Position numbers and translations under genes: made by a program
Part shown: one piece after another, positions 9,861-60,540 of the stretch
Layout: the number at the start of each line of letters is the position of its first letter
Numbering within the stretch: position 1 is the first letter of the stretch
Notes under the pieces: model-generated
The model's input: the letters and a program-made list of their open reading frames with translations, nothing else
Database searches by the model: none
What the model was told of the DNA's origin: nothing
Assembly (NCBI GenBank): GCA_018402565.1
Contig: JAGYIQ010000001.1
Location: forward strand, 806,001 to 870,000
DNA: 64,000 nucleotides
Direction: 5' to 3'
DNA from: Pirellulaceae bacterium
Lineage (GTDB): Bacteria; Planctomycetota; Planctomycetia; Pirellulales; Pirellulaceae

Positions 9861-10406
9861 ATGAGAAAACTAGAAATCCACGCAACCACGATCCTCTGTG
9901 TCAAAGGCGCCCAAGAAGTTGCCATCGGCGGCGACGGCCAAGTCACCTTGGGTGAGGCCGTGATGAAGGCCGACGCCATGAAAATCCGCAAGCTGTTGGA
10001 TGGACGCGTCCTCTGCGGATTCGCTGGCAGCAGTGCCGACGCCTTCGCCTTGCTGGAGCGGTTCGAGGAACGCTTGCGTGACTTCCCCCAAAATCTACCG
10101 CGAGCAGCCATCGAGTTGGCCAAACAGTGGCGGATGGATCGCGCCCTGCGGCAATTGCAGGCCATGCTGCTGACCAGCGATGGCCAACACGTGCTCTTGA
10201 TCAGCGGTACCGGGGATGTGATCCAGCCGACCGACGGCATCGCCGCCATCGGTTCCGGCGGCAACTACGCCTTGGCCGCCGCCCGCGCCCTGGTGGCTCA
10301 CAGCAGCCTGACACCCACCGAGATCGTCCAACAGAGCTTGAAGATCGCCGGTTCGATCGATATTTATACCAATCAGAACGTGACCGTAGAAACCCTCCGC
10401 TCCTGA
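9861..10406 (+). CDS. hslV: ATP-dependent protease peptidase subunit HslV
   Basis: A 181-residue N-terminal nucleophile peptidase of the HslUV proteasome-like machine. The active-site Thr is the first of the pair at residues 9-10 (ATTILCV). This implies removal of an eight-residue propeptide, MRKLEIHA, longer than the single Met of the E. coli protein. Family motifs follow: [30 protein letters not shown], and a Gly-rich [16 protein letters not shown]. It stands directly before hslU, separated by a 98-base gap that holds a small tandem repeat. Confidence 0.96.
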
Positions 10407-10426
10407 GCCGCGACCTGCCGCCAACT

Positions 10427-10477
10427 CGCCGTTACATCCGACCCGCCGTCACATCCGACCGGCCTTCACACCCGACA
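10427..10477. repeat. 17-bp tandem repeat between hslV and hslU
   Basis: Three tandem copies of a CGCCGTCACATCCGACC-like unit fill most of the gap between the two subunit genes. Copies differ at a few positions. No other function is visible. Confidence 0.75.
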
Positions 10478-10504
10478 CGCGTACCACCCTCAAAAGCCTG
10501 ACCC

Positions 10505-11944
10505 ATGACCGAAACCGCCACCACCACCGTCGCCGCCACAACCACCGCCACTCCCGACGACTTGACCCCGGCTCGCTTGGTCCAGTGGCTGGACCAATAC
10601 ATCATTGGCCAACAAGACGCCAAACGCAGTGTCGCGGTCGCCGTACGCAATCGATGGCGTCGACAACAACTGCCCGAACTGTTGCGACAGGAAATCAACC
10701 CCAAGAACATCCTCATGATCGGCCCGACCGGCGTCGGCAAAACCGAAATCGCTCGGCGTTTGGCCAAGATCACCAGTGCTCCCTTCATCAAGGTCGAAGC
10801 GACTAAGTTCACCGAAGTCGGCTACTATGGCCGCGACGTGGAAAGCATGATCCGCGAACTGGTGGAAAACGCCATTGTCTTGGTCAAAAAAGAACTGCAA
10901 GTCCAGAACGAAGCCGTGGCTCAAGCGCGCTGCGAAGAGCGGATCTTGGATCTGCTGTGCGGCCCCTGCACCCGCGATGCCGATGAACTGACCCCCGAAT
11001 CAGCGACGACAGACCCCACCACCGAAAGTGAATCCACCGAAGCGGGAACGACAACTACCGAGGTCGATCCGCTGACGACGCTGCGGCAGAAGATGCGGAC
11101 CAAATTGCGAGCCGGCAAGCTGGAAGATCGCACCGTCGAGTTCCGCGTCGAACAGAAATCCGCACCCATCATGTTCGGGCCGCTGGGCGGCGACAACATG
11201 GATCGCGACATGCAGTCCATGCTGGAGAAATTCATGCCTAAGTCATCAAAAACCAGAAAAACCACCATTAAAGAAGCTCGGCAAATCCTGTTCGAACAGG
11301 AATTCGAGAAGCTACTGGACGAAGATCAAGTCCACAGCGAGGCGATCGCCCGCGCCGAGAACCTGGGGATCATCTTCCTGGACGAAGTCGATAAACTGGT
11401 GGCCAGCGACAGCAAGGGAGCCGATGTGTCGCGGCAGGGCGTGCAACGCGATCTCTTACCGCTGGTCGAAGGGACCATTGTCAATACTCGCTACGGACAA
11501 GTCAAAACCGACCACATCCTGTTCATCGCCGCCGGTGCATTTCACAAGAACCAACCCAGCGACCTCATGCCCGAATTGCAGGGCCGGTTTCCCATCCGCG
11601 TCGAGCTGTCCAACTTGACCGAGGACGACTTTGTCCGCATTCTAGCCGAGCCCTCCAGCAGCCTGACCACGCAGTACGCCGCCCTGCTCAAGACCGAGAA
11701 CGTCGACTTGCAGTTTACAGAGGACGGCATGCGGACCATCGCTCGTCACGCCTTTCAACTCAACCAGACAACCCAGAACATCGGCGCTCGCCGCCTGCAC
11801 ACGCTGCTGGAGAAGGTCTTGGAGGACGTCAGCTTCGACGCGCCAGATCTCACCGGCCAGTCGGTCGTGGTTGACGCCGATTACATCAACGCACGACTGA
11901 AAGAACTACTGGCCGATCAAGACCTCAGTCGCTTCATCCTCTAG
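10505..11944 (+). CDS. hslU: ATP-dependent protease ATPase subunit HslU
   Basis: A 479-residue AAA+ unfoldase that feeds substrates to HslV. The N-terminal domain has YIIGQQDAKRSVAVA, Walker A is GPTGVGKTE (residues 73-81), Walker B is IFLDEVDKL (near 287), and the sensor/arginine region lies in the C-terminal third (QNIGARRLHTLLEKV). The C-terminus LSRFIL matches the tail that docks into HslV pockets. It differs from the E. coli protein by a Thr-rich N-terminal leader and a Thr/Glu/Ser-rich insert in the I-domain. Its stop codon lies inside the 167-bp inverted-repeat element that follows. Confidence 0.97.
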   Translation: MTETATTTVAATTTATPDDLTPARLVQWLDQYIIGQQDAKRSVAVAVRNRWRRQQLPELLRQEINPKNILMIGPTGVGKTEIARRLAKITSAPFIKVEATKFTEVGYYGRDVESMIRELVENAIVLVKKELQVQNEAVAQARCEERILDLLCGPCTRDADELTPESATTDPTTESESTEAGTTTTEVDPLTTLRQKMRTKLRAGKLEDRTVEFRVEQKSAPIMFGPLGGDNMDRDMQSMLEKFMPKSSKTRKTTIKEARQILFEQEFEKLLDEDQVHSEAIARAENLGIIFLDEVDKLVASDSKGADVSRQGVQRDLLPLVEGTIVNTRYGQVKTDHILFIAAGAFHKNQPSDLMPELQGRFPIRVELSNLTEDDFVRILAEPSSSLTTQYAALLKTENVDLQFTEDGMRTIARHAFQLNQTTQNIGARRLHTLLEKVLEDVSFDAPDLTGQSVVVDADYINARLKELLADQDLSRFIL

Positions 11945-24118: not shown

Positions 24119-24763
24119 AGCAGTACTTGGAGCCGCCTACCGAGCGTTTCCCGGCAAATGTCGAGTACCGCCGCTTCCGTCGTGGCTCTGCCCGGCGGAG
24201 CGGCAACTGACGGCTACCAAACCCCCAAACCAACCAAAATGCGGCTCTCTGCCTCTTGGTCATACCGGCAAACCGTCGACAACGCCCACGACCATTCAAG
24301 CGTGTGGCGAGCAAAAGCCAACTTAAAGAGTGCAAGAACGGCTCGGGCCCGAGGCAACCTTGTCGCTAACCAACCCCAAGGAAAACTTCCGTTGCTGGTT
24401 ACCTCGTTAGTCGGGTGGAACACTAATCGACGCTAATCGTCACTAATCCAGAAAACCGGGGTCCCACAAGCCGGTAATGGCCGAAAAAACAACGCCAACC
24501 ATGCCAGTTCACAAAGATTTTGAGGCGGTTGGATTTCTCTGCGTGCTTCCCCCCTCTCACGGTTCACCTACCGACTGGGCCCGATAGCAAACGACGACCC
24601 TCTGCCTGGGCGTTGAGTAATGCAAGGCCTCACACTTACCAGTATCACGAACCAAAAACCCGGCACTCGATTGCCAGTCAATTCCTGTCTCCATCGTTCC
24701 AGCCGCGAGCACTCACTCCCGCCGACTCTCGCTCCAAAGTAAGCGTCGAACTGCCGGTCTACA
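24119..24763. other. gene desert, left part
   Basis: No supportable gene. A segment at 24173-24215 (CTTCCGTCGTGGCTCTGCC...) recurs in reverse complement at about 30728-30770, next to the other polypyrimidine array, so it belongs to the repeat complex of this island. Confidence 0.5.
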
Positions 24764-25007
24764 GCTGTCCCCACTCCTCTGCCCCCATTCCTCTATCCTC
24801 ATTCCTCTATCCTCTATCCTCTATCCTCATTCCTCTATCCTCATTCCTCATTCCTCATTCCCCATTCCCCATTCCCCATTCCCCTGCCCCCATTCCCCTG
24901 TCCCCATTCCTCTGTCCCCATTCCTCTGTCCCCATTCCCCTGTCCCCATTCCTCTGTCCTCATTCCCCTGTCCCCATTTCACCTCCAACCAGCAGAGGGC
25001 TGCTGGT
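24764..25007 (+). repeat. polypyrimidine minisatellite with CAGCAG/CTGCTG palindrome, left copy
   Basis: About 215 bases of CCTCTGTCCCCATTCC-type units on this strand, almost pure pyrimidine, end in the palindrome ACCAGCAGAGGGCTGCTGGT (24988-25007). The same composite occurs in reverse complement at 30806-30938. The frames it opens (Ser/Pro/Leu repeats) are not genes. Such a strand-asymmetric stretch can form triplex structures. Confidence 0.85.
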
Positions 25008-25074
25008 CGACATCCCCGCCCACCATCCCGGGCTTGTCCCGATAGAGGCATGACTGACCGGCTACCAGCCCACC

Positions 25075-27325
25075 CCAAATAATCAAAAAGAAGGCGTTTT
25101 GCCCCTTGGTCACATCGCCACCGTCGGCTTCATGCCGGCGGGGCGATGACTGACCGGCTACCGGCCCAGCCCACAATAATCAAAAAGAAGGCGTTTTGCC
25201 CCTTGGTCACACCGCCCCCGGTGGGTTTACCCCGCCGGAGCGAAAGTTTGGGTAGCTAGACCGCTCCCCAATAATCAAAAAGAAGGATCGTTGCCCCGTG
25301 GTCACACCGCCACCTTCGGCCTCGTGCCGATGGGGCGATGACTGACCGGCTACCAACGCCCCCCAATAATCAAAAAGAAGGATCGTTGCCCCTTGGTCAC
25401 ACCGCCAGAAACACTCTGCGGCAGAGCATTGCCTCGCGGTCACCGCCCAGCCGTGCAAACAACTCAAGCATCGCAGAACACACCTCCCCCAATTGCGGTC
25501 TCGGTGGAAGTTGAGCAGCTAAACCCGCGTCGCACTCGACCGCCCAAACCGCACGCCGTCGCCCTCTAGCCTGTCAAACTTTCGGTCCAACGACACAAGG
25601 TCATTGGGGCCGCTGGCATCGCTCGTCGTCCCGCACTCAGGCAGAGGGCGAATAGGGTACGGAGGGCGACCGCCTGAAGGCGGAACTACAAGCGGCGAGA
25701 CCTCGCTTCGGTGAGCCTTCGTTAGGCCGACTCTGACCGTCTCCATTGGTCACGTCTCGCGGCTAGAAGGCCCCGCTCGTAGTCCCGCTCTCCAGCAGAG
25801 GGCGCCATGGCGAAACTCCGCCAAATAACTGACCGGCTACCAGCCCAGCCCACAATAATCAAAAAGAAGGCGTTTTGCCCCTTGGTCACACCGCCCCCGG
25901 TGGGTTTACCCCGCCGGAGCGAAAGTTTGGGTAGCTAGACCGCCCCCAATAATCAAAAAGAAGGATCGTTGCCCCTTGGCCACATGCCACCTTCGGCCTC
26001 GTGCCGATGGGGCGATGACGACCGGCTACCAGCTCCCCCCCAATAATCAAAAAGAAGGCCCGTTGCCCCTTGGTCACATCGCCAGAAACACTCTGCGGTG
26101 AAACATCGTCTCGCGGCCACTCACCGCCATACCGTGTGTACAACTCCAAGCTACTCAGGCTACGCCTCCCCCAATTGCGGTCTCGGTCGAGGTTGAGCAG
26201 CTAAACCAACGTGGCACTCGACCGCCCAAACCGCACGCCGTCGCCCTCAGCCTGTCAACTTTCGGTCCAACGACACAAGGTCATTGGGGCCGCTGGCATC
26301 GCTCGTCATCCCGCTCTCAGGCATAGGGCGAATCGGGTATCGAGGGCGACCGCCTAAGGCGGAACACGAGCGGCGGGTCCTCGCTTCGGTGGGCCTTCGT
26401 TAGCCGGCCCTCAACGTTTCCATTAGTCACGATTTGCGACTGGACGGTCCCGCTCGTAGTCCCGCTCTCCAGCAGAGGGCGCCATGGCGAAACTCCGCCA
26501 AATGACTGACCGGCTACCAGCCCAGCCCACAATAATCAAAAAGAAGGCGTTTTGCCCCTTGGTCACACCGCCCCCGGTGGCTTTACTCCCGCCGGATGAA
26601 AGTTTGCAGCTAGAACGCTCCCCAGCAATAATAAAATCAAAGAAGGATCTTTGCCCCTTGGCCACACCGCCACCGTCGGCTTCATGCCGGCGGGGCGATG
26701 ACTGACCGGCTACCAGCTATCCCCACAACGATCAAAAAGAAGGCGTTTTGCCCCTTGGCCATACCGCTAGAAACACTCTGCGGTGAAACATCGCCCCGCG
26801 GCTACTTACCGCCATACCGTTTGTACAACTCCAAGCTACGCAGAACACGCCTCCCCCAATTGCGGTCTCGGTGGAGGTTGAGCAGCTAAACCAACGTCGC
26901 ACTCGACCGCCCAAACCGCACGCCGTCGCCCTCTAGCCTGTCAAACTTTCGGTCCAACGACACAAGGTCATTGGGGCCGCTGGCATCGCTCGTCATCCCG
27001 CTCTCAGGCATAGGGCGAATCGGGTATCGAGGGCGACCGCCTAAAGGCGGAACTACAAGCGGCGGGACCTCGCTTCGGTGAGCCTTCGTTAGGCCGGCCC
27101 TCAACGTTTCCATTGGTCACGTCTCCCGCCCAGGCGGCCGCTTGTAGTCCTGCCTTTGGCGGAGGGCGCCTTGGAGAAACTCCGCCAAATGACTGACCGG
27201 CTACCACACCTGCCCCACGGTCGCAAAGATGGAGCTTCGCCCTTGGCACACGGCGCGGGTTCACCTTGGGACCGAAAGTTTGGGCAGCGAGTACGCCCCC
27301 CACAACAATCAAAAGAAGGCCCGTT
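25075..27325 (+). repeat. short dispersed element, about 11 copies in plus orientation
   Basis: The core is CCCCAATAATCAAAAAGAAGG followed by a variable stretch of about 5-7 bases and GCCCCTTGGTCACACCGCC. Cores occur near 25084, 25181, 25275, 25371, 25860, 25954, 26048, 26537, 26636 (variant), 26733 and 27305 (variant). Between cores lie GATGACTGACCGGCTACCAG and imperfect palindromes such as GGTGGGTTTACCCCGCCGG. Five further copies in minus orientation lie at 30.4-31.1 kb. Spacing is about 95 bp inside clusters. No coding sense. Confidence 0.85.
25160..27205. repeat. threefold tandem repeat, unit about 683 bp
   Basis: Three consecutive units share the same succession of motifs. The landmark AATTGCGG falls at 25491, 26173 and 26858, giving periods of 682 and 685. 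The unit carries two to three short elements, then a diverged block with an inverted repeat around CCGCCTgaAGGCGG, and ends with CAGAGGGCGCCATGGCGAAACT. Units differ by substitutions and small indels, so amplification is not recent. Similar small frames in each copy are by-products. Confidence 0.85.
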
Positions 27326-28213
27326 GCCCTTGGCACCGGTCCCATGGGTTCACCCGTGGGACTGATCACGAGTTGCTCAACCTGCAATCTTCGTTCCTAA
27401 AAACACTCTGCCTTCCATCCCGTCGGCCTCTTGTGTCAGCCCTCCGGGCCTTCTGATCGTAGTGCCTCGTCGGCCTGCGGCTGACGCCACCGGCAGGGCA
27501 TGGTTTGGCCCTCCGGGCCTCACGGCAGCAGGCGACTGGTTCAGACGGGCAACTCGTGGCGAGTCGAGCTTGCATGCCAGGAGGAGGACTTGATAGACGC
27601 GATTCTGAGTCCCGGAAATTGACTTACTTCAATCCCCCTAAGACTTAAACCTGACGAAGACCACAATAACCAAGAACATTCCTTCAGGTCGCACCTCTCG
27701 CGGCCAATAAAAACGTCCTTTCAGCAGCGAGCCCAACCGCCTGCCTCGCTACCGGTCTGTCCTCAGCCCGTCCCGCTGACCAAAAACCACTGCCGCCCGT
27801 CGGCTCATCTGCTCTGTCACGCGAAACAGCCCCGTCTTCCGCCTCCCAATCTGACCGCTGGGGCTAAAATCGCCCTATCTTCGGTTGCGAACTCCATGCC
27901 AAACCGCGGTCGTCCGGCGGCAGCTCCGGGCCTAATCCTCAGAATCGGGGTTATTTACGGGGTATTCTTGAACGGAGTGACTTACTCGATGAACCGTTCG
28001 TATGCCAACCGGGGCTGGCGTAGTTGATGCCTCATGAAGTCCATGTTATTCCTGACTAAGTGAATCCTTGACTCATTCAGCAATGGATCGAATGCATCTG
28101 AAAATCGATGATCTTGGCCACTCGAACCTGCCTGCCCCTACCATGAACCAAAAACTACTAGGTACTTAGGACAATATGGGTAGGTACCGCATATCTTTTG
28201 TTATGGTACCTTT
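27326..28213. other. gene desert, unassigned
   Basis: About 900 bases without a supportable frame. The base composition is visibly lower in GC beyond about 27600 than in the flanking chromosome, as in the Rhs remnant that follows. No tRNA, integrase or insertion sequence was seen. Confidence 0.5.
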
Positions 28214-30379: not shown

Positions 30380-31075
30380 TGGCGCAGATGTGACCAAGAG
30401 GCGGAGTGCCTTCTTTTTGATATTGGGGGGATGGCGGTAGCTGGTCAGTCATGCCTCCACCGGGACAAGCCCGGAATGGTGGGCGGTGTGGCCAAGGGGC
30501 GGTGGGCCTTCTTTTTGGTAGTTGGGCGTAGCTGGTAGCCGGCCAGTCATCGCCCCATCGGCACGAGGCCGAAGGTGGCGATGTGGCCAAGAGGCAACGA
30601 GCCTTCTTTTTGAATATTGAGGGGCGTTCTCGCTGCCAAACTTTCGGTCCCACTGGCAAGCCAGTGGGGGCCGGTGTGGCCAAGGGGCAGAGTTCCTTCT
30701 TTTTAATTATTGGGGGGGGAGCTGGCAGCCGTCAGTTGCCGCTCCGCCGGGCAGAGCCACGACGGAAGCGGGGGTGGACCAGCTGCCCTTTGCTGGTTGG
30801 AGGTGGGATGAGGACAGGGGAATGGGGACAGAGGAATGAAGACAGGGGAATAGTGACAGAGGAATGAGGGACAGAGGAATGAGGACAGAGATAGACAGAG
30901 GAATGAGGACAGTTGTAGACCAGCAGTCCTCTGCTGGTCGGAGCTGAGAATCGCTTGTCGTATGTGCAAGCGGCTTGAACCAAGGGATTGGGTTGTGAAA
31001 TAAAAGCCGGGCACGTTCATTGGCGGTGTGACCAAGGGGCGAGTGCCTTCTTTTTGATTACTTGGGGGTTGCTGG
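30380..31075 (-). repeat. short dispersed element, five copies in minus orientation
   Basis: Reverse-complement copies of the core (GGTGTGGCCAAGGGGC..GCCTTCTTTTTGATTATTGGGG) occur near 30407, 30508, 30602, 30690 and 31046. They are interleaved with TGGTAGCTGGTCAGTCATGCC and with the hairpin TCCCACTGGCAAGCCAGTGGG (near 30648). They mirror the array at 25.1-27.3 kb across the Rhs remnant. Confidence 0.82.
30806..30938 (-). repeat. polypurine minisatellite with CAGCAG/CTGCTG palindrome, right copy
   Basis: Reverse-complement counterpart of 24764-25007: GAGGACAGAGGAATG-type units followed by ACCAGCAGTCCTCTGCTGGT (30919-30938). A related but imperfect CAGCTGCCCTTTGCTGG lies on its other side near 30779. 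Confidence 0.82.
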
Positions 31076-31103
31076 TAGCTGGTCAGTCATGCCCCCACCG
31101 GGA

Positions 31104-31245
31104 CAAAGGGCTGGTGGATTTTTCCAGACTCGCTCACGAAATTGCTGCCCGATTCAATGAAATCGGGCAAAAACACGGCGTTCGCGCCTCAATCGAAATG
31201 CTTGACGCATTCCGCTACGGAAAAATCAACTAGCCCAACAGGGGG
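31104..31245. repeat. dispersed repeat beginning GGGCTGGTGGATTTTTCC, copy 1
   Basis: A stretch of about 130 bases beginning GGGCTGGTGGATTTTTCCAGA and containing CTCAATCGAAATG recurs in shortened form at 60236-60333. Here one frame reads GLVDFSRLAHEIAARFNEIG and on to FRYGKIN, then stop. That is protein-like, but it has no start codon or ribosome site of its own. It may be a decayed gene end carried by a repeat. Confidence 0.5.
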
Positions 31246-31365: not shown

Positions 31366-31668
31366 TCAAAACGAGAGCTTCCCGGGCTTGTTTGGTGTAT
31401 CGGATCGGCCCCCCGATTCGAATGAGCAAAGTTTCGCGACCGATCGCCACTTCGTCAAGTCGGGGGGACGGGGGACTGGGCAAGAACCTAGGAGACGGCC
31501 CGCCGGGCCGCCGGGGGACCGGGAGCCGACAGGACGGTGGACCGGGCCGACGGAGGACGCCCGCCCGATGTTTAGGCCCGTCCTGTGGTTAGGCCACCCC
31601 GTGTTTAGGCCACCCGATGTTTAGGCCGTCCTGTGGCTAGGCCGTCCTGTGTTTAGGCCACCCCGTGG
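31366..31668. repeat. minisatellite region downstream of the helicase gene
   Basis: A GC-rich stretch without a gene. From about 31568 to 31675 there are six to seven copies of a GTGTTTAGGCCACCCC-like unit (15-17 bp). The array reaches the last codons of the helicase gene, whose C-terminus (GGKRLAA) is next to it. Confidence 0.7.
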
Positions 31669-33489
31669 CTAGGCCGCCAAACGCTTCCCGCCAGCACGCA
31701 ATTGAAACAGTCCCATGATTTCGTCCTTGGTCAGGCTGAGGTTCTGCGGGCCGTTGGTGGCCGAGAACAGTGTCTCGAACAGCTGGCGTTTTTCTTCCAA
31801 GATCATGTGAATCCGCTCTTCAATCGTCCGCTCGCTGGTCATCCGCGTGATGGTGACACTGCCGGCGGCCCCGATCCGATGGGCACGATTGATGGCCTGA
31901 TCCTCGATCGCTGGGTTCCACCAGCGGTCGAACAGAAAGACGTAGCGGCAGAACTGCAGGTTCAGGCCCACGCTGCCGGCCCCGTAGCTCATCAGCAGCA
32001 CGTGCTTGCTCGGGTCTTCTTTAAACTGCTTGAGGATCGGATCACGTTGCTTGGAGGGAATCCGACCATGGTACTCCAGTGGCCCGAAGCGTTCCAAAGT
32101 CGGACGCATCTGATCCACCGTCTTGACCCATTGGCTGAACACGATGGCCTTCTGACCGCTGGCGGCGACCTCTTCCATATCGGCCTCCAAGCGTTGTAGC
32201 TTGCTGCTGGCCCCAGTCACCGGATCAAAATTGCAGATCTGCTTGAGCCGCAACACCAACTGAAACACGTGTTGGATGGTCAACTCCTCGCCCATATCGC
32301 TGAGGCGGAGAATGCCTTTCTCTTCCGCCTCGCTATAGGTTTCCCATTGCTGGGGAGTCAGTTCCAGCAAGGCGTCGCGATACAGGCGTGGCGGCATGTC
32401 CTTCAGGACCAAGTCCTTCGTCCGCCGCAGGACGTAGTCGCCCACCTCGCGGGCCATGACCTCGATGGGCAAACCGGGCGGCAGGTAGCCGGGCAGCAGG
32501 AATTCGAAAATGCCATGCAGGTCGTTGACGCTGTTCTCGATTGGGGTACCCGTCAAAGCCCACGAACGTTGGCGGTTGATCTGGCGGATCGTCTTGGCCG
32601 TGCTGTTACTGCTGTTCTTGATCCGCTGAGCCTCGTCGAGGATCACCAGGTCGTATTGCTTATCTTCGCCCACGACTTCGCCTTGGTCACGCATCAACAA
32701 CTCGTAGTTGGCGATCTTGACGGGCGTGGCCTGCTGTTGCCACAGGAACGAACGCTTGTGCGTATCGCCCTCAACGATGCCCAGCGGGATTTCAGGCGCC
32801 CAGGCGGCAAATTCGCGTTGCCAGTTCGTCACCAATGGCTTGGGGCAGATCAGGAGCACGTTCTTGATGTGCCCCGCGTGCAACAACAGTCGCACCGCCG
32901 TGATCGCTTGCATGGTCTTGCCGAGCCCCATTTCATCGGCCAAAACCGCGGCCGCTCGTGGGAAGAGAAACGCCACCCCCTCCATCTGATGCTGAAACGG
33001 CTGAAACGGAAAATCCAGCGTCTGGCTGGAGAGCAACGACTCCAACGGCGGTTGCAGTAGGTAGTACAACCGATCCGTCCACTTGATCAGGTCCTTGGGC
33101 GGCTTGATCCGCGTCCGCGAGCGGGGGGCGGTCGATTCGTCCGCCACCTTCGCTGGATCGCGTGCTTCACCGTCCCGAGGTTTCGCGGGCACCGACCGAG
33201 CGACGACCGGCAACCAGTTCGGCGACTCGGGGAATACATGTGAAAACACGCGAGCCGTGGGCATGCGTCCGGCCAGACTGATGACGGCGGGAGCGTCGAA
33301 CCGCAGCGATTTGGCATCGATGGAAGTCGCAGCCGACCGTTCATCTTCTGCTGCCGCACCGTCACCGCTCAGCCTCAATTCGCGGTCATGCCACGACCAT
33401 GTCTCGATCTCCCAAGCCTGCTCCGCATCCCCGGGGGAAGGGCGATCGGTTCTCGAGGGGTCGGTCTCGCCACGAAAGAAATTCAGCAT
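31669..33489 (-). CDS. SNF2-family DNA-dependent ATPase/helicase
   Basis: A 606-residue SF2 translocase of the SNF2/RapA-like group. Motif I is DEMGLGKTMQAI, motif II is DEAQRIKN, motif III is LTGTPIENSVNDL, motif V is LMSYGAGSVGLNL and motif VI is QAINRAHRIGA. About 170 N-terminal residues of unknown role precede the ATPase core. No nuclease or methylase domain is attached. The start may be the ATG at 33489 or a TTG at 33501; the upstream gene ends at 33508, so the two are clearly one unit. Confidence 0.93.
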   Translation of the reverse strand: MLNFFRGETDPSRTDRPSPGDAEQAWEIETWSWHDRELRLSGDGAAAEDERSAATSIDAKSLRFDAPAVISLAGRMPTARVFSHVFPESPNWLPVVARSVPAKPRDGEARDPAKVADESTAPRSRTRIKPPKDLIKWTDRLYYLLQPPLESLLSSQTLDFPFQPFQHQMEGVAFLFPRAAAVLADEMGLGKTMQAITAVRLLLHAGHIKNVLLICPKPLVTNWQREFAAWAPEIPLGIVEGDTHKRSFLWQQQATPVKIANYELLMRDQGEVVGEDKQYDLVILDEAQRIKNSSNSTAKTIRQINRQRSWALTGTPIENSVNDLHGIFEFLLPGYLPPGLPIEVMAREVGDYVLRRTKDLVLKDMPPRLYRDALLELTPQQWETYSEAEEKGILRLSDMGEELTIQHVFQLVLRLKQICNFDPVTGASSKLQRLEADMEEVAASGQKAIVFSQWVKTVDQMRPTLERFGPLEYHGRIPSKQRDPILKQFKEDPSKHVLLMSYGAGSVGLNLQFCRYVFLFDRWWNPAIEDQAINRAHRIGAAGSVTITRMTSERTIEERIHMILEEKRQLFETLFSATNGPQNLSLTKDEIMGLFQLRAGGKRLAA

Positions 33490-57300: not shown

Positions 57301-58277
57301 TCCATCATCGAGGGGGCGAACCCCAGGCCATCGTGCGGCGCGCCGAAACTGGGGTAATACGCCCCACGCATGACTTGGGTCAGAGGCTTGCTATGACAAT
57401 CGGCCGTGAACAGTGTGAACCAATCATCGCAGGCCATGCCGTACGGGTTCACCTGGCCGTACGACACGTGCTCGATGCGACTGCCGTCGGGGCGGAAGCG
57501 ATACACATTGCCGCTGTTCATCGTGACTCGATGGCCATCTGCACCCGCCACCACCGACCGATTGGCAAAGCCATGACAGGCGTACACCCAACCGTCAAAT
57601 CCTTGAATGAACGAATTGTTCATCCCATGCGTGTCGCGTGAACAATCGAAGGGACCCAAGATCCGCTGTCGCTGGTCGCAGACGCCATCGCCGTCCGTGT
57701 CGGAAAAACGAGAAATATAAGGAATATCGAACACCAAACAATCATCGCCCAATGGCAGAATGCCGATGGGAATGTTCAGATTGTCAGCAAACACGGTGTG
57801 CTTATCAAAGGAGCCGTCGCGGTTCGTGTCCTCCAAGATCACAATCCGATCGCGGCCTTGGCCCTCGGCTGCAGGATACGGGTACTCGATGGTGCAGGTC
57901 ACCCACAGCCGACCTCGCACATCAAACGCCATATTCAGCGGCTTCTGGATCACTGGTTCGGCCGCGATCAAGTCCACGGCCAGGCCGGGTAGGGGAGTGA
58001 AGCTTTGGAGTTGGTCCAGCGGCGCCAGCGGCTCGGTGCTGCGGACGTTTTCCGCGAAGGGATCTTGCGCCGCCGCGGTTGCCGCGGCTCCGAGCATCAC
58101 CAGCCCCAGACCCGCCAGCAGGGCCAGCCAGAGGCCCGCCGGCAGGACAAGCCAGAGGCCCGCCGGCAGAGCCAGCCTGAGGCGCAGGCGTACCGGCGGC
58201 CAAGCCGGCGGATTGGCCTTCCGCCGCGGGGAAATCTTGGCATGGTGCCCTTCGGAGCGGTGATCGTTGCGACTCAT
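54303..58277 (-). CDS. PVC-type haem-binding protein (membrane-bound dehydrogenase, HEAT, cytochrome c)
   Basis: A 1324-residue exported protein. The leader contains three near-identical 8-residue units (LALPAGLW, LVLPAGLW, LALLAGLG) encoded by a 24-bp tandem repeat. An N-terminal beta-propeller of the membrane-bound dehydrogenase type follows (AFDVRGRLWVTCTIEYPYP, VFDIPYISRFSDTDGDGVCDQ, GPDGGLYVGDFYNR). A long HEAT-like helical region and a C-terminal cytochrome c domain with haem motif CAACH (near residue 1205) complete it. Such proteins are thought to oxidise sugars in planctomycetes. The ATG at 58277 overlaps the upstream stop as ATGA, so translation is coupled. Confidence 0.92.
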   Translation of the reverse strand: MSRNDHRSEGHHAKISPRRKANPPAWPPVRLRLRLALPAGLWLVLPAGLWLALLAGLGLVMLGAAATAAAQDPFAENVRSTEPLAPLDQLQSFTPLPGLAVDLIAAEPVIQKPLNMAFDVRGRLWVTCTIEYPYPAAEGQGRDRIVILEDTNRDGSFDKHTVFADNLNIPIGILPLGDDCLVFDIPYISRFSDTDGDGVCDQRQRILGPFDCSRDTHGMNNSFIQGFDGWVYACHGFANRSVVAGADGHRVTMNSGNVYRFRPDGSRIEHVSYGQVNPYGMACDDWFTLFTADCHSKPLTQVMRGAYYPSFGAPHDGLGFAPSMMEHFHGSTAIAGVEVLAALNFPAAYAGQLVSGNVMTSRINRNRLEWQGAYAQAIEQPDLLATSDPWFRPVSLIQGPDGGLYVGDFYNRIIGHYEVPLQHPGRDRDRGRVWRLRDATVESTALAAAAPSVTASSPLEQLVAMFEHPVVRTRLAAVNEVVARVEAGTIDRAAVVEFCQQRLGAAAVENDSVAAQVASLWCLLRVDPVAWSAAVESSSMVAAPPLVRAHVQRALSEAWPGGTSGPEPAGRGPRLSLSAADFQQRLAAGLSDSEPRVLQAAIDAAGRWGSEQNLPSLLELAAADSGRDPVVIHAARVALKETLLGPAAASSESGRGVPAAPSTGGVDELAERRAACWRWIKQSELSSERQRTLAAVMLAVPSREAADFLIDYLAEPGRRDESAGLMIQHIAKHLPTDRAGELVGLIQSQHPENLPAQWELLMAVGEGLSRSGQATPPPVWQWANGLVQQALRELAEKPVPWQAVRLDGRQAPAANEQAWQVQWRPVAGDSVGPGSAAGQNRNVAMLSSLPAGETRTGILRSQEFRLPAKLRFALAGHRGFPDQGAHELNQVQLRLESGEVIQTAFPPRNDLAQWIEWDLEAWEGQLATVEIQDGDTAGAYAWLAVGEFSVSALAVPQWSPGQLSEYVQSLCRVVARFRLQDADSSLQALLLGPGGLSPDDRLLVARTLADLRGQGFGRAFAEDLMREDLHPEIKQVLASVIALSGQLDLLDPPDDPNLRHGNSYSYLRDWLPQLNARQQRLLVRAATNEAAVFERVLGWAESGHLAVDCFNDPGIQQQVKVAENGRWWTRVERLLADVPPTDEAWRERAAAASTRFQPWLEQLRNGQALAAAALPRDTELAQEQLSGGELVEWKRLGQQVFQRDCAACHQLAGQGAVVGPQLDGIHRRGLERVLEDVLLPNQNVDHAFRSQVLLLDNGQILVGLVQAEDEAAVQLTDPQGKARTVPVSQIEERRMTPQSLMPNDIAHSYSDTTLLGLMVYLLEQ

Positions 58278-58753
58278 GGCTCGTTGTCCTCTCCTGTCGA
58301 TTCTTGCCCGATGAAGCGGCCCTCGCGATCGAACTGTTCCTGCAACCAAGCTTGGCCAACGCCGAGAATCGAGGCCATAAACTCTTCGTTCGAAAAGTAA
58401 GTGGCCTGTTCCTGCGAATCGACAAAGCCCAACTCGTGCAGTTCGCTCTCGACTCGTTCCAGTGAAAATCGACGCTCGACCTGCTTGAGCAAGGCATGCA
58501 GCTCTTCGTGATGCAAGCCGACGTGCAAGGTCTCCCAGTTACCGATCATGTGTCCGGGGTTGTTCTTGAGAATCAACCAGCGGCAGTAGCCTGCGATGCG
58601 ATGCAGCCCCATCAGGCACGCGCCCACGGCTGACAGCAGCAGCAGGCGATCCCGATCGGGCAATTTGTGTCGCTTCCAAAACAAAAACGCCAACCGCAAG
58701 TACGAGGTCAGCGTGTTGATCGACATGTTGTTCAGGCTCATGCCGTCTATCAT
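58274..58753 (-). CDS. small protein translationally coupled to the PVC cytochrome
   Basis: A 159-residue protein that I do not recognise. It is mostly helical, with SLNNMSINTLTSYLRLAFLFWKRHK, DRDRLLLLSAVGACLMGLHRIAGYCRW, then FSLERVESELHELGFVDSQEQATYFSNEEFMASILGVGQAWLQEQF. The last part resembles short regulatory or chaperone-like helical pairs. It has no signal peptide. Its TGA overlaps the ATG of the 1324-residue cytochrome gene, implying stoichiometric production or a role in its making. ATG at 58753 or 58741; the upstream frame to 59053 runs through REP-like repeats and is not used. Confidence 0.7.
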   Translation of the reverse strand: MIDGMSLNNMSINTLTSYLRLAFLFWKRHKLPDRDRLLLLSAVGACLMGLHRIAGYCRWLILKNNPGHMIGNWETLHVGLHHEELHALLKQVERRFSLERVESELHELGFVDSQEQATYFSNEEFMASILGVGQAWLQEQFDREGRFIGQESTGEDNEP

Positions 58754-58904
58754 GGCCAGACAACGGCCAAGAATCAACCGATGTACCCGGCACGAGGTCA
58801 GTTTCTGTCGCCCACGGGTTTCTGGGTCTAAACCGGTTGCTTGGCCCCGTCTCGCCCCGAGTGGACAGCGAGCACAGCCCAGCCCACAGGCTCCGTCCCT
58901 CCGC

Positions 58905-59010
58905 CCCCGCCGGTTCATACCGGTGGGAGCGAAAGTCTGGGACAGCGAGAAACAGTACAGCCCGCGAGCTGTCGACTGTCCCCGCCCCCGCCGGTTTACC
59001 GGTAGAATGC
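58905..59010 (-). repeat. REP-like palindromes downstream of the transposase gene
   Basis: Two units in reverse orientation to those at 59.9 kb: CGCCGGTTCATACCGGTGGG near 58910, followed by AGCGAAAGTCTGGGACAGCGAG, and CCGCCGGTTTACCGGTAG near 58988. Together with the array upstream, they bracket the gene at 59066-59863. Confidence 0.75.
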
Positions 59011-59065
59011 CGCAAGATTTGGCAGCGCGAGGCCTTGCTCGTCCCGCGTCCAAGCTGTAGCCACA

Positions 59066-59863
59066 CTACCTCCGCACCGCCCCCATGTCGTACTCGCCAA
59101 ACGTCCCCACGTAATAGCTGGGGCGTAACACGGGTTGCTGGCCAAACGCAAAGGCGATGTTATTCATAAACCCCAACGCAATCGTCTCCGGAGATTCTTC
59201 CACATTCCCCCGTAGCGTTATGTGCACGTGGTCGGGCATGACCGAGATACTGCCCAGCCAGTAGTCCTTCTTCAGAGCGTTTTTCTCACATAACTGTTTG
59301 ATTCGATTCAACGACACCTCGTCTACGAAACGTTCGCGGTGTTCGGTGACAAGCACCAAATGCAAGTCGTACCAATAGCGACCTCGGTTCGTCGCCGTCG
59401 GCTCCCTCAAACTCACGTAGTCGTTCACGTGCGTGTACCGTGCGATCAGTTCCGCAAACCGAGGGTCGATGAATTGCGCTTTCGCGACTTGATTCGCGAT
59501 GTAACCTTCCACCTCTTCGCGTTTGTTTTCGCCCAACGAGCGAAAGGCCACTTTGCGGCTGAATTCGATCCGCGTCCCAGCGATCCTCAAGGCGTATTGG
59601 AGCCGTGCTTTGACTCGGGCAGTGAAAAGGGTCGGAGCCACGGTGGGAAGGACACTGCACGTGAACTGGAGCTGATCGGGATGCCAAAGCTTCTCAAGCA
59701 GTCGTATGCCGTCCGCTTCCCAGGTACTCGACAAGGTGTCGAAGAAGCATGTATCGGGTTGGGTAGGGAATGAACCGGTGGACGGCCAGCCCGTCCAAGT
59801 GTACCGCAGTTTGAAAGACGGAGAGTCGATGTTGTCCGGTCGGTAAAGAGGCGTAGGAGTCAA
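59066..59863 (-). CDS. Y1 (IS200-like/RAYT) transposase with N-terminal extension
   Basis: A 265-residue protein whose C-terminal 110 residues match the HUH single-strand transposase fold. The opening strand is YDLHLVLVTEHRERF, the metal-binding HxH is in SVMPDHVHITL, and the catalytic Tyr candidate lies in PSYYVGTFGEYDM. The N-terminal 150 residues are helical and not part of the usual domain. No IS200/IS605 ends or TnpB are nearby, but REP-like palindromes flank the gene in inverted orientation, as for REP-associated tyrosine transposases. Those enzymes cut and join REP DNA and are thought to spread REPs. Confidence 0.82.
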   Translation of the reverse strand: MTPTPLYRPDNIDSPSFKLRYTWTGWPSTGSFPTQPDTCFFDTLSSTWEADGIRLLEKLWHPDQLQFTCSVLPTVAPTLFTARVKARLQYALRIAGTRIEFSRKVAFRSLGENKREEVEGYIANQVAKAQFIDPRFAELIARYTHVNDYVSLREPTATNRGRYWYDLHLVLVTEHRERFVDEVSLNRIKQLCEKNALKKDYWLGSISVMPDHVHITLRGNVEESPETIALGFMNNIAFAFGQQPVLRPSYYVGTFGEYDMGAVRR

Positions 59864-59912
59864 TGTGAGTTACTCCGAAATTGACGAACGGGTTCGGTTT
59901 GATGACGCCAAT

Positions 59913-60240
59913 ACTACCAAACTTGCGCTCCCACCGGTAAACCGGCGGGGGCGGAGCGGACGCCGTGCTGTGTGCGGCCACGTCGTGCTCGCTGCCAAAC
60001 TTGCGCTCCCACCGGTGAACCGGCGGGGGGCGGTGGGGCCGCGTTCGTGGGTGACGCGTGTCTCGCTGCCAAACTTGCGCTCCCACCGGTGAACCGGCGG
60101 GGGCGGATTGGGCCGTGTTCGTGGGTGACGCGTTCTCGCTGTCAAACTTGCGCCCCCACCGGTGAACCGGCGGGGGCGGACGGGCCGTGTGTGTGGGTGA
60201 CGCGTTCTCGCTGTGAAACTTGCGCCCCCACCGGTGAAGG
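59913..60240 (+). repeat. tandem REP-like array upstream of the transposase gene
   Basis: Five units of about 73 bp begin near 59915, 59990, 60063, 60137 and 60209. Each has GCTGCCAAACTTGCGCTCCC, then the palindrome CCCACCGGTGAACCGGCGGG, then a G-rich tail and GTGGGTGACGCGTTCTC. The fifth is cut after CCCACCGGTGAA, where another dispersed repeat begins. A sixth, isolated palindrome (CACCGGTAAACCAGCGGGG) is near 60369. Confidence 0.88.
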
Positions 60241-60333
60241 GCTGGTTGATTTTTCCAGACATGCTCGCGAAACGGCCGCCCAACTCAAGAAAGTCGTGCG
60301 ATAGCGAGGCGTTTCCGACTCAATCGAAATGTG
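60236..60333. repeat. dispersed repeat beginning GGGCTGGTTGATTTTTCC, copy 2
   Basis: A shorter relative of 31104-31245: it begins GGGCTGGTTGATTTTTCCAGA and ends near TCAATCGAAATG. In the matching frame it reads GLVDFSRHARETAAQLKKVV before a stop. It interrupts the last REP-like unit. Confidence 0.5.
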
Positions 60334-60540
60334 AAACGCCCAGCCCACAAGCACGGTGTCTCCGCCCCTCACCGGTAAACCAGCGGGGGGCGGAGGGGGC
60401 GCGTCTGGCAACTGCCCCTACTTCTGCGTTCACGCCTTGTGGTAAACTATGAACTGGCCTGGCTGCGGGCGGCCCGACCACTCGGCGTCCGATCGCGGGC
60501 CGAGGCTCGGGCTCCAGTGCCGGGAACTTTGAGAAGCGAG

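Follow-up and report, generated by a model that had tools for sequence, protein, structure and literature searches.

Our analysis revealed that the transposase encoded between two inverted arrays of REP hairpins in this planctomycete genome consists of two fused IS200-type Y1 domains with complementary decay. A REP-bounded single-strand transposon (REPtron) with such fused, complementary Y1 lobes is, in our judgement, quite probably the best explanation of the gene and its surroundings. The window, i.e., the whole stretch of 64,000 bases that was analysed (G000:C1:806001-870000), belongs to a genome of 7.18 Mb in 223 contigs, estimated as 93.5% complete. The features on which the argument is based are the following:

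59066..59863, minus strand: single-chain double-Y1 transposase gene, 265 aa, TTG start
59453..59821, minus strand: N-lobe (aa ~15-137), a decayed Y1 domain without HUH that keeps Tyr121 and Gln125
59069..59404, minus strand: C-lobe (aa 154-265), Y1 domain with His212 and His214
59489..59503, minus strand: Tyr121-Gln125 codons, Y-x3-Q motif, invariant in 36/36
59222..59230, minus strand: His212-His214 codons, HUH motif, invariant in 36/36
59917..59954, plus strand: REP 1, adjoining the gene start, head gene-ward; the mobile unit has its shared edge at the outer foot of this REP
59988..60033, plus strand: REP 2
60062..60106, plus strand: REP 3
60135..60179, plus strand: REP 4
60207..60238, plus strand: REP 5, cut after half of the hairpin
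58982..59030, minus strand: inverted REP adjoining the gene end, head gene-ward and partly decayed
58899..58940, minus strand: second inverted REP, head gene-ward
60338..60397, unstranded: outlying degenerate REP, headless; palindrome at 60368-60387 with 2 mismatches
58790..60437, unstranded: approximate insert, lacking from the orthologous site in the sister species, with edges accurate to some tens of bases

The original prediction of a transposase gene between inverted arrays of REP hairpins was borne out, since REPs lie on both sides of the Y1 gene. It had counted five tandem units of about 73 bp on one side; beside the gene start we found four whole units and a fifth that is cut after half of its hairpin, with plus-strand unit starts at 59910, 59988, 60062, 60135 and ~60207 (the cut one) and a spacing of 78, 74, 73 and 72 bases. 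The two inverse units that it reported on the other side, beside the gene end, are indeed present. Each REP unit is composed of a head, CTCGCTGCCAAACTT, that is predicted to be unpaired, a foot that pairs with the 3' GGGGGCGG side, and an apical hairpin, and the heads face the gene from both sides. The left neighbour of the unit (58308-58780) is conserved, with 78% DNA identity in the sister species; the ORF 58274-59053 that runs over this stretch gave no Pfam match above the cut-off.

Comparison of the window protein with Pfam matched only its C-terminal half, to Y1_Tnp (2.7e-10). Its NCBIfam scores were 42.8 bits for transpos_IS200 (cut-off 55, not reached) and 12.9 bits for REP_Tyr_transpos (cut-off 80, not reached). 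The prediction of a RAYT-like element in a planctomycete thus holds for the REP/RAYT-like layout, while the protein itself is nearer to the IS200 transposases. When a profile of the family was searched against the PDB, IS200 types were matched at 3e-19 and 2e-18 and TnpA_REP at 0.11. All 32 relatives tested match transpos_IS200 (best 1.1e-33), and 14/32 match REP_Tyr_transpos at E<=0.01 (best 2.7e-6).

What had been described as a long extra N-terminal domain is instead a second Y1 domain, the source of the catalytic Tyr and Gln. The N-half profile matches eight structures of IS200/IS608/ISDra2 type with E-values from 7e-11 to 3e-6, and in the three alignments shown Tyr121 and Gln125 fall on the catalytic YIEEQ/YIENQ. 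At a lenient E<=1, 31 of 32 N-halves (31 from loci or the window and one from the own genome) match Y1_Tnp, the best at 4e-9; the N-half of the window protein alone gave no Pfam match even at this threshold. Pfam found two Y1 stretches in 6/8 relatives scanned. Across the 36 aligned proteins Tyr121, Gln125, His212, His214, Lys85, Gly111, His168 and Pro225 are invariant, H-x-H occurs in none within the N-lobe stretch aa 40-115, and Y-x3-Q occurs in none after aa 250. The five clade-3 proteins have Trp in place of Gln near the end of the C-lobe, and four of these (4/36) keep a Tyr there.

Structure prediction agreed with this division. The C-lobe of the model superposed on TnpA, in its best rows with Z 9.9 and rmsd 1.6-1.8 over 112-113 residues. 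Residue 265, at the very end of this lobe, is aligned with residue 126 in 6/8 IS608 entries listed (with 129 in another, the alignment ending at 256 in the remaining one) and with residue 131 in 4/4 ISDra2 entries listed, so that the C-lobe ends one residue short of the IS608 Tyr127, as numbered in the available text of PMC5934647, and of the ISDra2 Tyr132 named in the PDB title. The N-terminal region modelled alone likewise matched IS200-type structures, with Z 9.7-11.4 against 7.2 for the next unrelated fold, and is therefore not an extra domain of another kind. Among the 15 IS200-type rows for this lobe, 6 reach at least residue 119, and the other 9 end at 111-113, at least 7 residues before Tyr121; residue 120 was placed on ISDra2 residue 131 (two rows) and on IS608 residue 126 (one row). 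TnpA_REP 4er8 stood low in the VIA-align lists (Z 5.1 and 6.6), a position that alone excludes nothing. AF2 modelled the whole protein with pLDDT 92 and pTM 0.90, and the Tyr region (aa 111-139), with pLDDT 57-59 in the lobe alone, rose to 76-91 in the whole protein; these values fit a Tyr region that would pack on the C-lobe.

According to the available text of PMC5934647, the IS608 active site is built in trans: one chain contributes Tyr127 and Gln131, its partner His64 and His66. Since the N-lobe has the Tyr and Gln and the C-lobe the HUH, as in the IS608 trans site, each lobe holds one half of such a site, and we infer that together they may form one IS608-type trans active site within one chain. 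Judged by motif and profile, the protein is IS200-like (Y-x3-Q), not a classical RAYT (Y--NP). No tandem or single-chain Y1 transposase was described in the available text of the literature that was searched.

A scan of species genomes identified 43 relatives in Planctomycetota, Verrucomicrobiota, Kiritimatiellota, Lentisphaerota, Armatimonadota, Sumerlaeota and Auribacterota, as well as in delta- and gammaproteobacterial bins. Within the phylum the family is patchy, occurring in 5/294 genomes including the own one. The alignment of 36 proteins consists of 32 of the 43 loci and four own-genome proteins, and the 11 omitted loci are partial or frameshifted (L097, L098, L121, L123, L126-L131 and L133). 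The tree divides into clade 3 (5 rows, 100/100), clade 2 (9 rows, 95/88) and the rest (22 rows, 83/93, drawn open), with the window gene and L094 as a pair (100/99). Among plasmids, 25 records matched, none with 80% coverage; among viral contigs there were four pattern matches, none of them a relative.

The inverted layout is general in this family. Inverted similarity of at least 17 between the 500-base flanks was detected at 33/38 genes, compared with 4/52 shifted control places at the same loci; this set comprises 36 of the 43 loci and five own-genome genes minus the short-flank L098, L118 and L122, and the threshold, below which 5/38 flank pairs remain, was picked after viewing the sequences. 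Flanks of up to 450 bases around 41 genes contain 174 hairpins, against 19 after one shuffle each. By a head motif that was also picked after viewing the sequences, 58 of the hairpin heads point gene-ward, 26 away and 6 both ways, with no head in 84.

The window palindrome, CCCACCGGTNAACCGGCGGG, is unlike the REP palindromes of gamma-proteobacteria. It recurs elsewhere in the genome, with 16 exact matches in 7.18 Mb (reversed control 0) that sit in the window, at C1:619-633 kb, on C2 and on C160. When one mismatch was allowed, 18 matches were counted here, and in the other 293 genomes of the phylum there was one in each of two and none in 291; the reversed palindrome also gave one match each in two phylum genomes, so the palindrome stands at background there and is not equally abundant in genomes that lack the gene. 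Its co-occurrence with the gene was found in part: three copies occur in the sister species, a Planctomycetaceae bin, whose gene (L094, 88% identity) is the closest, but this is only 1 of 36 genomes with relatives, the count having taken in the genomes of 36 of the 43 loci. The head CAAACTTNCGSTCC occurs 180 times in the own genome (control 0) and 1-3 times in 41/293 other genomes, which is the level of the reversed control (up to 4). It was not found in G061, G114, G130 and G039, all of which have gene matches, and is thus not universal; REPs at genes that are the same as or near-identical to those in G061, G114 and G130 bear other heads (L100, L117 and L134). Chance as the source of the REPs is ruled out by the genome-wide counts together with the inverted layout. 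Folding energies of single REPs compared with shuffles gave z -0.95 for each of the window and B types and z -2.4 to -3.3 for three others; since the window and B types fold no better than shuffles, folding energy alone is no proof.

A protein search of the genome identified five places including the window gene. The paralogue on C160 has 98% identity to the window gene, the one on C57 (64%) lies amid CCCAACGGGACGAGCCCGTTGGG, the one at C1:872866 (58%) lies amid CCGGCCAGACRAGCTGG and CCTGCCGGRTGAACCGGCAGG, and C112:1027477 is a broken clade-2 gene with an internal stop. The REPs of the window, C57 and C1:872k have an AACTT head in common despite their differing hairpins; the C57 head, GGGAACTT, falls outside the pattern by which CAAACTTNCGSTCC was counted. 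All eight occurrences of the C57 palindrome (<=1 mismatch) lie ~0.6 kb or less from the C57 gene. Among 97 relatives, it was found in addition to these eight in one other genome, G367, where six copies with one mismatch lie inside a MITE-like repeat, with no gene relative within the 97 kb examined there. This repeat (L150-L155) measures ~275 bases, has the termini GACACTTCTCGCTAATCGCC and contains several REP-like hairpins in alternating orientation; six copies were seen, one of them shortened at an end, with apparent target duplications of ~8 bases at several by eye. A clade-3 double-Y1 protein is encoded at C158:36 kb, where the hairpins have another kind of head. It corresponds to L076:8738-9604 (288 aa), and its REP-like flank repeats carry the head AGCGAGAAGCCTAA. 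C180 (L077 ~9894-10600) has a similar copy, for which the ATG/GTG/TTG ORF starts inside the protein.

The whole unit occupies different places in the two sister species. In the sister species (G294), the homologue of window 58308-58780 and a ROK-type gene are separated by ~83 bases that contain neither a REP nor a gene. There the unit lies between moxR-type and DUF58-type genes (named by eye) that are 1.6 kb apart, and in the own genome 13 bases separate these two genes. All A palindromes that the sister species has, three in number, are on a contig other than that of its empty site, C120, at positions that fit L094. The window, C160 and L094 copies have a common left edge at the outer REP foot and diverge beyond it, where the window and C160 have weakly similar REP-spacer-like sequence and L094 has other sequence. 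Between C160 and L094 the match (88%) runs from one REP to the other, over 968 bases. These changes of site are seen in metagenome bins, and rearrangement could have moved the unit.

The flanks of the C160 copy are 99.8-99.9% identical to C1:618754-619745 and C1:625767-632752, and its gene differs from the window gene at 13/798 bases. That C160 is a recent copy of the window gene is doubtful, since the genes differ to this extent despite the near-identical flanks, which points to a strain variant with an older copy or to an assembly chimera. C160 (L069) and C1:618754-632752 (L070/L071) are near-identical alleles that differ between the same two REPs; between these, C160 has the transposase unit and C1 has 6 kb with desuccinylase-like and cytochrome-c-peroxidase-like genes (named by eye).

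In the available text of PMC6006769, Quentin et al. (2018) divide TnpA_Y1 proteins into classes, with Y---Q in class 1 and Y--NP in class 2, which includes RAYT types, and report that a few unexpectedly long proteins were dropped as fusions or annotation errors. None of the classes in Table 1 of that text fits the window protein. With IS200/IS605 TnpA (IS608, ISDra2; subclass 1.1) it has in common the Y1 fold, DHVH and Y-x3-Q, hairpin ends with the head 5' of the foot, and a trans site between two Y1 domains, shown for IS608 and probable here. The Y1_Tnp fold with HUH of subclass 1.1 is present, but the Y-x3-Q after the HUH in a protein of ~150 aa is not, the motif being in the N-lobe, before the HUH. 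IS200/IS605 TnpA is a homodimer with two sites, and here one chain would have one composite site. Unlike in those elements, the ends are inverted, the REPs are dispersed and gene copies are few, and no tnpB was noticed among the neighbouring ORFs of the window.

The RAYT/TnpA_REP REPtrons (class 2, E. coli type) resemble our element in that inverted REPs bracket the gene and are also dispersed in the genome, gene types are paired with their own REP types, and a 5' head lies outside the hairpin. In contrast, our proteins have two lobes and lack Y--NP, with Y-x3-Q in 36/36. The head at the foot is CAAACTT-like instead of GTAG; GTAG- or CGTC-tagged REPs have been reported previously in Planctomycetes, in the available text of PMC3733652. 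Moreover, REPtrons are reported to be immobile as a unit, unlike this one, which lies at different sites in sister species with reciprocal empty sites. Class 3 (Planctomycetes, Acidobacteria and Proteobacteria) is likewise planctomycete and REPtron-like, with atypical hairpins and Gln in the Y motif. In the available text of PMC6006769, however, it has 178 aa, NHVH, YV[VI]x-E-Q and a CnGA foot, none of which we found; our protein has 265 aa, DHVH, a Y-x3-Q before the HUH in the chain, and other heads. Our verdict is that the element works like a RAYT/REPtron and like IS608 and is a full member of neither, the RAYT-like working being indicated by paralogues that lie amid their own palindromes, three with the common AACTT head.

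The architecture of the REP-bounded transposon is well supported, and for its catalysis, specificity and transposition route we infer the following course. The two lobes would fold like the IS608 TnpA dimer and form a composite site in which one lobe provides the nucleophile and a metal ligand and the other provides the HUH. The enzyme would bind the REP hairpin and head in single-stranded DNA, probably on the lagging-strand template, and cut at the outer foot via a 5'-phosphotyrosine. The strand would be rejoined elsewhere, so that a single REP or a pair of them moves in some cases and the whole REP-gene-REP unit in others, each paralogue being matched to its own palindrome. One site per chain, compared with two in IS608, would count against this course as regards the cutting of both ends. 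It also appears somewhat likely that REP/RAYT-like systems had an independent origin here from IS200-type transposases, by fusion of two Y1 domains, in which complementary loss turned a two-site homodimer into a one-site chain that co-diverges with its REPs, occurs in PVC bacteria and beyond, and still moves the whole REPtron.

A less probable reading, to which we assign a minor share, is that the protein is a domesticated RAYT-like processor of REPs for the host, the unit being immobile and its places differing by rearrangement or by homologous recombination between REPs. The few copies per REP type would agree with this, as would the purifying selection on the gene (dN 0.063, dS 0.41 between window and sister gene) and the C160/C1 difference between two REPs, where recombination could act. 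Classical RAYTs are described as single-copy and vertically inherited in the available text of PMC8049555, and classical REPtrons as not transposing as a unit in that of PMC6006769 and PMC8049555. Against it, the empty alleles at both reciprocal sites show no REP by eye, so that none was there to recombine; three copies in three contexts have the same REP-bounded left edge; and the family is patchy in the phylum yet occurs in bins of several phyla.

That the protein is a catalytically dead binder of REP hairpins, a regulator with no full site in either lobe, is very improbable: each lobe alone does lack half of the active site, but the four catalytic residues are kept in 36/36 proteins over deep divergence, as a composite trans site needs, and in a protein that only binds nothing would favour their conservation. 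We consider it still more improbable that a classical RAYT (TnpA_REP) acquired an unrelated N-terminal domain. The REP layout and the 14/32 matches to REP_Tyr_transpos would suit such an origin, which is contradicted by the Y1 nature of the N-lobe and by the profile scores, all 32 relatives matching transpos_IS200; in addition, Y-x3-Q takes the place of Y--NP (class motifs as in the available Table 1 of PMC6006769) and is missing from the C-lobe.

Neither the way in which REPs spread nor the ability of RAYTs to move themselves is settled, described RAYTs being taken as domesticated and immobile, and a REP-bounded unit found at different places in two sister species bears on the self-movement. 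The single chain provides a ready-made test of the trans site of HUH transposases, in which mutations are placed in one chain and mixed dimers are not needed. Several pairs of paralogue and palindrome in one genome could allow hairpin specificity to be read from natural variants.

The looser relatives predicted in the 25-31 kb island of the window are real, comprising seven places with heads and more or less decayed hairpins (25249, 25566, 25928, 26613, 26933, 27281 and 30629), among which a second head type, GTAGCYGGYCAGTCATCGCCCC, is interspersed. An orphan REP family, B, has the same head as the window family and 53 places with no mismatch to CCCACGGGTNAACCCGNGGG, including L083-L088 and window 27341; within ~20 kb of its REPs no Y1 place was found in the 93.5%-complete assembly. 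REP mosaics at window 25000-27350 and 30400-31150, in which CAAACTT and GTAGC-CAGTCATC heads alternate, are built of ~97-base units and ~680-base higher-order repeats. The GTAGC-CAGTCATC head has 105 genome-wide matches at <=2 mismatches and resembles REPs around clade-2 genes; the sole clade-2 copy found here is the broken C112:1027477, and no such head was seen close to it. Tandem arrays adjoin the REP mosaics at window 24726-25019 and 31562-31689, with units of ~14 and ~16 bases, respectively.
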